In this document: positions 1,200 to 7,100 of the stretch, in pieces
How positions within the stretch are numbered: the first letter of the stretch is position 1
How the letters are laid out: the number at the start of each line of letters is the position of its first letter
Notes under the pieces: generated by a model
Database searches by the model: none
Seen by the model: only the letters and a program-made list of their open reading frames with translations
What the model was told of the DNA's origin: nothing
Made by a program: the position numbers and the translations under genes
From: Tubulanus polymorphus
Taxonomy: Eukaryota > Nemertea > Palaeonemertea > Tubulaniformes > Tubulanidae
DNA: 64,000 bases
Assembly: GCF_964204645.1 (NCBI RefSeq)
Contig: NC_134026.1
Coordinates: 2,480,001 to 2,544,000 of the forward strand
Direction of reading: 5' to 3'

Positions 1200-4100
1200 C
1201 TAAAATGATAAATCATTGATAATTTTCATCTTTCCCTATGTGAATTCACAGGATCAAGATAAGCTTTATTTAGCAAAATTCTCCCATAAGAATTGCAGTT
1301 CCCAAGTAGTAATTTGATAACTGAATACAGAATGAATTGCCGGGTGCAGATGACTTTGCAAGTCCAAGAGTAGCCTAGCTTCTAAATCTCAATAGAACTG
1401 TTTGTATCGAATTCATCACATACATGCTTTCACTTCTTATCATGAACACACATCAAATAATGTTTTAATTCCGTTATACAGGGGAAAATTACCAACTTGC
1501 AAACTTGACATCAAAAAGATTTTCACATATTCAGTGATTCAAATGGGGAATATTGTGTTAGACATCCACACAAAACAGAAAATTGGTTAGTAACAGCTGA
1601 AAGTCTGATGAACTGGAAAAAAGATTTTTCTAGAAGAAATCAAATCTAAAACAAACATTGTTTGGTCATCTTAGTAGAACTGATTTTCTTCGGAGACAAC
1701 CAAATTTGGATGTAAAACTACTGGAAGGATTCAAGGTTGTTAGGTAAATTACTACAACTTTTCTACAACTGACACCAAATGGGGTGCATTACATACAACA
1801 ATAATACCTAAATCTTCCTCACTGAACATCCTTCCTGTGCCAGTTTTGCAACACTACGGACACCCACTATTCTAGTGCCCTAATGTCTTACCCATTTTTT
1901 AAAAGTAGCAATTCCGATATGATCAATAAGTAGTGATGGCATAGTATAGTGAAACTATGTCAGATTTAAGCTCTTTAATAATCAAGGGGTTGAAACCTTT
2001 TTTCTCAATGCAAAAAATAAATAGCTAGAACTAGAACAATGCCCGACCCCTAAGAGGCTTTTTAATGAATTTATTGACTGGAGATGTTCAGAGGAAAAAA
2101 TTGGTCAACAGAATGTTAGCATGCAGAAATTTCTTACCTCGGAAGACCTTAACTGTTTTTAGGAAAGTTTAGGGAAGAGACGAACGACAAAGTGTTAGAA
2201 CACACATACCCCTTAAACATATCAACTGATTTTACATGCATGTACATGTTTCCTGTCTGAGATTGACTACCAAGAAATTTTCTAAATTAAAAGTTTTGTT
2301 TGACGACAATAACTCAAATTGACTCAACACAGATCTTCCAAAAATGAATACAGACACGTATCAGCAAAATGAGTTGACAATGATATTGTAAAATTCGCAA
2401 AAGATACCAGATATGAACAGGCATCTTTCAATAAGCTATGAATATTTTTGCTGAGCAGAAAATATTATACGGTAACTTAATCTAACATTTCAGAACTACT
2501 GCATTTGACTACTAAATCAATAGTGTATAGTTTCATGTATCTACAGAAATCAGAAATTCTCTTCAATGCGATGATCAAACTATTAGTTAAAAATCGGAAG
2601 CATTAGAAATACATGTATTAGCAGCCAGTAAACAATATGATATATACACAAATTAGAACAACACTATAATAGTTTTGTTATTACGAAAAAGGAAATAATA
2701 TCCACAGGAGTGTTCATTAGGTTTTTTCTGTAGTCGTCTAAGATTTTAAGTGCACCCAATTTTCAATGGTTTTAGGATCACTGTAGGATCAAAAGAATCA
2801 GCACCCTGTGCTGTATGATTTGAAGTGATTTGTGGAAAGGAGTGGCAAATAATTAGATATAATTTCGTTTTATAACTTACCAGCATCACATAATTTGCCA
2901 ATATAACTAGTGCCTGTACAGTTACACTGATAACGTCCTAACCATTTCTCCGTGCACACTGACCCGTGTTTACACGGTTTAAAATCACAACCCGATACAC
3001 AGGTAGGATGTGTCCCTGTATGAAAACAAACGAAAAATACATTAAATTCACTACACTATGACATATATTGTATACAATTCTATTGAAAGAAATCAGACTT
3101 AAGAAACCGCTAAAATAGACAATACTAATTCCCATATGTTGGAAACTTAAATCGTACTTACCATTCTTTGGGTGTGCTTTCGATGATAGGTTAAATACTT
3201 GACTGCCGAGTTTAAAACCTCGGATACATCCGATAAACTGAGGAATACTCGTTAAATATGTCTTCGGGACTCCACCCAGATAGACGCGAAACCCGGGTTT
3301 AAACGGCTCTGATGTCCTCGGTGGAATCACCGTTTCTGAAAAGAAAGAGAAAATGTTGCGTTGTATATTTTCTAGTAACCTTTTGTCGATTCTTGCACAA
3401 GTTCTTATTGAAATTTACCTTCATGTATGAATGGTTTACTGGAGTAAGCGATTAATCTCAGTCTTCTAACTCCCATTTCTAATCGATAACTATTCGCGTA
3501 TATATCTAACCAATCCCAGTGCTGGGTTATCACGAGCTGCTTCCAGGTCCCGTCATCTAAACCTAATCGAGATGAAAATCAGTATCAGTTTATATTTCTT
3601 AGCAGCCTATACTTCTTTTCGGATGAAGGATTTACATACCCATGATAGGAATGTTCTTTTCATGAATTCGTATTCCCACATTATACGTATACCGCAGTGT
3701 CGTCCCTCGAATTATTGTCAACTGCATGAAATTGTTTAATTCGTCATGGGCATAAAATAGAAGACCGTTTTTATGATATGTTCGGAAGCTGATCGTGATA
3801 TCTTTCTGAATCAGTTTGTTATACATCTGATCAAACTCATAAGCCAGATATGCTCCTTGCTTTAAGAATGTCACCATATCTTGGTCAATATCTGGAAGAC
3901 GAACCATTTATATCCATGAATATTTCTATTAATACCCATATCAAAAGGCATTACATTGTTAGTACTATGTTTATACTGGATCCCTTCTTATTCTTAGGCA
4001 CAATCTATAGTGTGTCAGTCAATTCCAACATTTCTAATTTTCACCCATCAATAAACTTACTTGTTTCACATTTTTCACCATAATGTGAAGCTGGTTTGGC

Positions 4101-7100
4101 ACATATACATTTGAACGAGTTCCAATATTCGACACAACGTCCTCCATATTTACAAGGGTTTGGTTTACACCACGGATAACAACCTTTACCAACACCAGTG
4201 GAACTACAAAAATATTTCAAGGTAATCATATTCTACTTCAATAAGAGCAACAGCATAGAATTAGCTAACATAAGTTATGTTCAAACTATTCATGCTCTGT
4301 GGTCAGATCATCCTCCCCCGGCAGGGATTCGAACCTGATGGCATCGAGATTGCCACAGCACGAAACCCTGCCATAATCGACCGTGTGCGCAGATACATGC
4401 GCAGTTCAGATGATGTGATTTTTAGCCAATCAGAAATCCCGTTTTATTTTATCCCGGGTTTTCCCATTTATAGCTCTTCCTTGAAATTTGCCTCAACGAT
4501 TATACAACGAGCAATCTGATTGGTGCCGCCAGTTTTCGTTCGGAAAGCTGCGCATGTACCTGCGCACCCGGTCTACTGATGCAGGGGTTCGTGCCGTGGC
4601 TGAGTGTAGCGATGCCATCAGGTTCGAGTCCCAGCAGAGGGAGGATGTGGTCAGATAGGATGTAACTTACTTTATTGTAACATATTCAGATAATGGCGCT
4701 TCTACACCATTATACTCAAACGTTCTAAAACAACCCTCAAAACTTGGATCTCTGAAATAGAAATGAGTTGTCATTAGAAAGATAAATATAAGTCACTCTT
4801 TACTATAGATTCTTTCATTTCATAAAAAACTTACTCCCTAGATCCACCTAAAGTCATCTTCGTTTTATATTTGACCATCTTCTCATCTTTGACTAGATCT
4901 CGCAGTTCCGATTGTAAACCAAATACAGCGCGTAGCTGGAACTGATCATACTGCAACGCCACCTGATGCCAAACTTCATCATTCAAAGACTGATGAGATT
5001 TTAGGAAGATTTGGTGTCTCTTAGCAGACGTGGTGAAGTTAAACAATACGGTAGTTTCTGCAAATTTAGAAACATTTATAGAAAGCTTTATTCAGTAAAT
5101 CGAAATGTATTCATTAAGAGCGCTTTGTGGTAAAAACATACCATTGAAGACTTTGATAGTTAAATCATCTTTTCCTTGTCTTTGTTTGACTAAGGTACAG
5201 TGCGTTTTAGTTGTGCGAAACCAGAAAGACAGATCACCTCTCGACCAACCAGGAATTACCAGAAAAGTAGAATCTTTTCCGAAAGCCACTTCATTTTTGT
5301 CATTTTTCGCTGAATTTGGATATAAAAACTTGTGCAAAGTGACATGTTCATGTTCATGACAATAGAATTTCTATTTCATTAAAATAAGAAACTGGTATCT
5401 GCACTTACAAGTTCCATAACACTTTAAAGGACCCAATGTAACATCAGCAACACCAGGCCCGTCCTGTATGAAAATCATTTCTGTCACTGGAACTTGGGAC
5501 TTGTCTTTAAACGTACCAAAATCGGTCATCCACTTTCTATAACCTATTAAACACATCAGAAAATCCATTAAAATTATTTTCATCACACCCAAAAAAATAT
5601 ACTTCATTGTTATATGAAAATGCAGCTAACCCGCATCACAACTGCAAGTATGACCATGCACACAGCTGTAGTTACTATGACAGCCACACTGTCCATTATT
5701 CTTAGCACCGAGTGCGCTGTACATGTTACCAGAAGCCGATACCATCCACGTCATATGACCAAGCCTAGAAAAAAAGTGATAACTTATTAGACTTCAGGAA
5801 GCCAGATTTACTGTAGTTAGATATCAATTACAATATGCAATCTTCTTTTAATTACCTGATTGGTGCTTTCCAGCATTTGTACGTTATATTTTGCTCACAG
5901 CCTTTTGACGAATTCGATAACATATTCAACATCTCCAAATCCATATCCCTGAAGTCACAAGAGTTTATATCAACTGATTTACTTCATATGAAGGAATAAC
6001 ATTAATTGTGAGGAATCAAAAAGAGCATTTTCTGTAATACATTACCTGTAATCTATAATTTTCTTAATGTTAGGTAATTTTGGACTGCGGACTGTGGTAC
6101 GTTTATAAAGATTATGATCCACGGATGTCATTGCGTACGATCCAAATTTCCCTCTTGTCACACCCATCTCGCATTGCACATAGCTTGGTTTAAGTGGACC
6201 ATTTCCATCCAAATCTATTCGCCTGATACTACTCGTTCTCATACCCGACAAGTAATACTCCTCGCAAGATTTCATGTATTTTGCTAAAATGTAAGATGAT
6301 TGAATTCAAATAATTCGCTTAACAGTTATCAATAATGCAAAGCTTAAACAGTCATCAATGCAAAGCTATGTAGTTCACAAATTGTATTGTACTGGTGAAT
6401 TGTTATACGCTCATGTGTTTGAAATAACTTACAAAAGTGACAAGCTGTTCCTTCATAACCAGTATCACCGCAGTCACAATGTATTTCATACCAGTCTGAT
6501 AAACAAGTCGAACCGTGTTGACATTGACTAGAATGTTCACAATAATCCCGCAAGTTACAATTATCTAATATCACATCTTTTACTGATGTATGCACAATCT
6601 CACGCATTTCTAACAGTTTTCCATCAAGTTTGATGCCACGAATACAACCAACAAATGATGCTGAAACATAAGCAATTTGAATAGCGTTCATTCGTTTTTC
6701 AGAATAATGTTTATATCTTCTCTAGATCATCTTGTGACCAACATAGAATAGAAATCTTACTTTTATTTCCATCTGGGTCTGACCCGAGATAGAATTCGCC
6801 TTCAGTTTCAAGTAGAATGAAATCGTTTAGATTTCGACGTTCTGGAGTGTAGTCGACTTCCACAGCTAAGTGTCTACAAAACAGTAGAATATTGACAAGC
6901 TGTTCAATGTAAGCAAAAACGTGGTTTAGCTTTTAAGGTACATACATGAAGAAGTAAAAAGAATTTCGAATCGTAGTTACATAACACTTCAGTCTCTTAG
7001 ATTATAATGAAATATGAGAAATCGTAAACAGCTCATTTTCAAGTGACATTTTTGTCTGGTTTAACCAGTGTTTGTTCAGTAATTGAACAAAAAGTTAAGA

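Follow-up and report, generated by a model that had tools for sequence, protein, structure and literature searches.

An inverted-repeat element between exons of an EGF/laminin-G gene

The window analysed here, i.e. the whole stretch of 64,000 nucleotides (C2:2480001-2544000) within a 267.8-Mb assembly which, judging from its genes, is that of an animal, contains a single copy of a 339-bp element, situated between minus-strand exons that encode EGF and laminin-G domains. These exons lie at window positions 2870-6500 (Pfam EGF 7e-9, Laminin_G_2 1e-5). The element, its flanks and the motifs in its arms are as follows (window coordinates, strand, description):

4300..4308, no strand: left target-site duplication TGGTCAGAT, an exact repeat of 4648-4656
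4309..4647, plus strand: complete non-autonomous TIR element (MITE/foldback), 339 bp, its ends set by 40 near-identical copies and by target duplications
4309..4404, no strand: left (L-type) terminal inverted arm, without an A-box-like motif
4325..4335, minus strand: B-box-like GGTTCGAATCC in the left arm, reading leftward out of the element
4405..4547, no strand: AT-rich non-coding centre, diagnostic of the 339-bp subfamily by a 35-bp probe
4548..4647, no strand: right (R-type) terminal inverted arm
4592..4638, plus strand: tRNA-Ser(AGA)-like stretch comprising acceptor/A-box TGCCGTGGCTGAGTG, GCGATG..CCAT and T-arm CAGGTTCGA.., as placed by aligning the subfamily consensus with genomic tRNA-Ser
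4620..4630, plus strand: B-box-like GGTTCGAGTCC in the right arm, reading rightward out of the element
4648..4656, no strand: right target-site duplication TGGTCAGAT, an exact repeat of 4300-4308

The element begins with CATCCTCC and ends with GGAGGATG, and its arms, of approximately 96-100 bp and some 81% complementary, stand on either side of a 143-bp centre. Inverted arms of about 100 bp had already been described in a reading of this DNA made from its sequence only, and are borne out here; the same sequence-only reading spoke of a perfect hairpin, which at this level of complementarity is an overstatement. Its exact 10-bp target duplication, GTGGTCAGAT (4299-4308/4647-4656), stands as a duplication but is better read as the 9-bp TGGTCAGAT, because the tenth base is the terminal G of the element and other copies end ...GGAGGATG with duplications of 8 or 9 bp. 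The predicted RNA fold of the element reaches -174 kcal/mol, compared with -99 kcal/mol (sd 5) for shuffled sequences (z -13.9). No sizeable open frame occurs in the 339 bp, and the repeats found in the element are inverted, with no direct repeats among them.

Copy number, age and size variants of the family

The element is a non-autonomous DNA transposon with terminal inverted repeats and, by its structure, a MITE, being short and non-coding and present in numerous copies that have the same ends and target duplications of fixed length, with an empty site provided by a nested copy (below). With the element as query, 40 copies among 2,017 candidates were scored as full-length, with 98-100% identity; exact target duplications flank 31 of the 40, measuring 9 bp in 22 cases and 8 bp in nine. 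Uniqueness is ruled out by approximately 1,967 genomic matches to the left-end pattern CATCCTCCCNNGGCAGGGATTCGAACC at ≤2 mismatches, against none for the reversed-pattern control. Since the 35-bp centre probe gives about 350 genomic matches at ≤3 mismatches (control 0) as compared with these ~1,967 left-type ends, the 339-bp form is a subfamily within a larger family.

The consensus of 38 ungapped copies is identical to five of them, and mean divergence is 0.53%, a value biased low in that the 38 are the best matches; the window copy differs from this consensus at four positions. As five sampled copies equal the consensus, the transposition burst is clearly recent. In a nested pair of copies (L060/L061) the inner one lies between two GCCACAAT (an 8-bp duplication), and joining its flanks with a single GCCACAAT restores unbroken host-element sequence as found in other copies. 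This empty site is direct evidence of precise insertion with an 8-bp duplication.

Variants were sampled at 30 loci chosen by the end pattern, taken first in contig order rather than by whole-element similarity. They fall into size classes with common outer ends (98, 110, 177, 244, 311-345, 416 and 1,353 bp), with target duplications readable in many, not all, of them. A partner end is present for 28 of the 30 sampled ends, and 27 of the 28 paired elements combine one L-type with one R-type arm; the subfamilies therefore descend from a single asymmetric ancestor. No coding interior was recognised in the long variant L066, the longest frame of which has no Pfam match.

Two further loci show related or similar structures. 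At L107:1500-1740 (close to 20623636 on C6), a terminal repeat has become a short tandem array: the outer half of an arm (TGGCAGAGTCTCGCGATGTCATCAGGTTCGAATCCC...GAGGAA), lacking the CATCC end, is repeated five times in units of approximately 51 bp. At L051:741-807, a 67-bp near-perfect palindrome has a mir-4662-like score on each strand that stays below the gathering score (E about 1e-8) and is probably another small MITE.

The serine-tRNA-like stretch and the promoter boxes

Read outward, the right arm aligns with a tRNA-Ser(AGA) of the same genome (reference loci L123/L124) as TGCCGTGGCTGAGTG--TA--GCGATG----------CCAT---------------CAGGTTCGAATCCCTGCCGA, the segments missing from the arm being those of the D-loop, the anticodon-loop and the variable-arm. 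An R-arm consensus, formed as the majority of 14 R ends, is identical to the tRNA at 44 of 46 aligned bases, with one inserted C (counted from the alignment). This consensus scores 25.35 and the right arm of the 339-bp subfamily 20.95 in an alignment that allows gaps at lenient costs, the costs being the same for the shuffles. Against the value of the R-arm consensus, dinucleotide shuffles averaged 11.8 with a maximum of 20.85; none of 5,000 reached either value, and 1,269 other window segments scored ≤14.75. Within a panel of seven tRNA sequences, which does not cover all isoacceptors, other tRNAs scored about 11-17, the runner-up being the other serine tRNA (17.2). The match of the left arm is weaker (17.6, equalled by 20 of 5,000 shuffles), because the A-box part of this arm is altered. 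The presence in the arms of a degenerate tRNA-Ser remnant, duplicated in inverted orientation, is thus, as a deduction from alignment, well supported, and better so than the sequence-only reading could show.

A chance resemblance, in which an ordinary MITE terminal repeat happens to carry a B-box consensus, is improbable, although three observations would agree with it. Neither ARAGORN nor Rfam (cut-off E ≤ 10) recognises a tRNA in the window element, in the consensus or at 18 loci that hold variant copies; conservation of the B box does not exceed that of positions 28-38 in the terminal repeat; and the spacing of the A and B boxes is abnormal. Against coincidence stand two tRNA-Ser blocks that are collinear and correctly ordered, the failure of every shuffle and every other window segment to score as high, and the clear lead of Ser(AGA) over the other tRNAs tested. 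Classification of the element itself as a tRNA gene or SINE was rejected on the negative ARAGORN and Rfam results. A second, inner tRNA-like unit per arm (GGTCTAGTG...GGGGTTCG) was also discarded, its self-alignment being no better than background.

B-box-like motifs in both arms and an A-box-like motif in the right arm were located as the sequence-only reading had described them. The A-box-like TGGCTGAG is confined to the right arm, on the plus strand, and like both B boxes reads outward; in this arm the A and B boxes start 25 bp apart, compared with 43-53 bp in tRNA genes of the same genome. Each B box is situated 17-27 bp from the nearer end, within the part common to all size variants, and by virtue of this closeness to the transposon end the tRNA T-arm/B-box is now conserved as part of the TIR. 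In unselected ends its conservation is 94%, as compared with 95% at positions 28-38 and 86-91% at positions 1-16, and selective conservation of the B box was accordingly discarded as not distinctive. With neighbouring positions similarly conserved, an end recognised by transposase explains the B-box conservation as well as a Pol III role does.

These features also bear on the origin of the paired arms. A tRNA-derived stretch in both arms, inverted, would fit two head-to-head tRNA-derived SINE copies mobilised or retrotransposed as a unit, and tRNA-derived SINEs share with the element their tRNA-like A and B boxes; nevertheless this origin, the second idea of the sequence-only reading, is very improbable. 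Nearly all ends are paired, almost always as one L and one R arm, and the duplications are fixed at 8-9 bp, unlike the variable, LINE-like duplications of SINEs. The ends (GGAGGATG) have no 3' tail, the tRNA portion is truncated, without an Rfam tRNA match, and the A-B spacing departs from that of tRNA genes as given above. Moreover, no abundant tRNA-Ser-like SINE was apparent, a search with the tRNA-Ser 5' half returning only 40 matches.

Pol III transcription from both ends into a hairpin, as the sequence-only reading proposed, is contradicted by the arrangement of the boxes. With the two B boxes facing outward, any transcript made by Pol III would exit the element, and transcription driven by the arms into the hairpin is excluded by orientation, provided that these boxes are the promoters. 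The strong fold and the presence of the box motifs are what a Pol III-driven hairpin RNA locus has in its favour; set against the outward B boxes, the left arm without an A box, the short A-B distance and the plus-strand T4 runs in the element centre, it is scarcely credible. Efficient Pol III transcription of the element is likewise unlikely, judging from these motifs. Such activity would be weak or absent and, if any, would start inside the right arm and proceed outward into flanking DNA, where the first T4 outside the window copy lies 215 bp away on the right (96 bp on the left). Hairpin RNA would require read-through of a host transcript, with the element between exons of the minus-strand EGF/laminin-G gene.

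Relation to known elements and candidate transposases

Small-RNA genes have served as raw material for SINEs and for a few LTR elements, i.e. Cassandra, Helenus and Ajax (PMC10886601). Helenus, an LTR TRIM with tRNA-like LTRs that include tRNA-Ser types in rust fungi (PMC10886601), is by analogy the nearest counterpart of the present element. Helenus TRIMs and Cassandra (with 5S rRNA in its LTRs) resemble it in being non-autonomous and in holding small-RNA-gene sequence within their terminal repeats; they are, however, LTR retrotransposons with direct repeats, a PBS and a PPT, whereas the element described here is a DNA transposon whose repeats are inverted. Inverted ends built from a tRNA gene appear to be unusual. 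In the open-access papers searched, we found no DNA transposon whose terminal repeats derive from a tRNA; Repbase reports and most subscription journals fall outside that scope, so that this is weak evidence.

We suggest tentatively, at slightly less than even odds, that the TIRs are a captured serine-tRNA remnant which the transposase binds or tolerates, that each copy scatters two outward B-box sites which TFIIIC might bind, and that the family is a DNA-transposon counterpart of Helenus. If true, DNA transposons would join the elements derived from small-RNA genes through a cut-and-paste family whose inverted repeats come from a tRNA, and, with some 2,000 B-box-like sites across one genome, TFIIIC binding at dispersed MITE ends would become testable.

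With regard to the transposase, members of the Mutator (MULE) superfamily generate target duplications of 8-10 bp, mostly 9 bp, and Merlin (IS1016-type) elements generate duplications of 8-9 bp and are likewise accompanied by MITEs. Genome-wide searches returned 56 MULE (PF10551) and 43 Merlin-type (PF12762) matches. The 9- and 8-bp duplications counted among the 40 copies have MULE-type lengths, and in one MULE family whose ends were readable, one copy is flanked by a 9-bp duplication and another by an 8-bp one, the mixture seen also in the MITE family. The element further resembles MULE MITEs and foldback elements in being short and non-coding, with long inverted arms, 8-9(-10)-bp duplications, high copy number and internal size classes with common ends; it differs from them in its CATCCTCC ends and in the tRNA-Ser-derived stretch within its terminal repeat, and no autonomous MULE with such ends was identified. 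A MULE transposase is probably to be favoured over Merlin, the assignment to Mutator being made from duplication length only.

Mobilisation of the same MITE by a Merlin (IS1016-type) transposase is unlikely, albeit less remote than the readings dismissed above. Its 8-9-bp duplications, its known association with non-autonomous MITE copies and the Merlin-type matches in this genome are all compatible with the element; the Merlin copy with readable ends, however, has an 8-bp duplication and termini GGCCCAAGTG, and in the MITE family 9 bp predominates. Both the MULE and the Merlin ends that could be read here differ from CATCCTCC. As for an autonomous partner, none of the 3-kb loci around the 10 top MULE (PF10551) and the 10 top Merlin (PF12762) matches carries the end motif within 1.5 kb of the match, and a pattern for the same ends with a different interior occurs at 13 places, of which those with readable structure are more short variants.

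Taken as a whole, we therefore read the element, with a probability of roughly 0.75, as a young member of a high-copy MITE/foldback family that has arms derived from tRNA-Ser(AGA), that would be mobilised by a Mutator-like transposase, and that has little or no Pol III activity. A Mutator-like (MULE) transposase would cut and paste the element in trans, recognising the terminal ~40 bp, and each arm would have arisen from a serine tRNA gene of the AGA type by loss of the D-loop, anticodon-loop and variable-arm segments. This comes close to the better of the two ideas in the sequence-only reading, a Mutator-type MITE with a captured tRNA fragment: the MITE anatomy, 8-9-bp duplications, copy number, empty site and tRNA-Ser(AGA) match all agree with it, with Mutator entering through the length of the duplication.

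Among the transposase matches themselves, two 2.65-kb MULE copies (L088 and L089; C5:10706212 and C7:13341325) are 99.7% alike, have 444-aa open frames and arrays of 16-bp subterminal repeats (CACTAGTCCGGGGGTC), are flanked by 9- and 8-bp target duplications, and look recently active. Four of the Merlin-type transposase matches (L092, L093, L096 and L097) lie beside long tandem arrays with units of approximately 50 bp.
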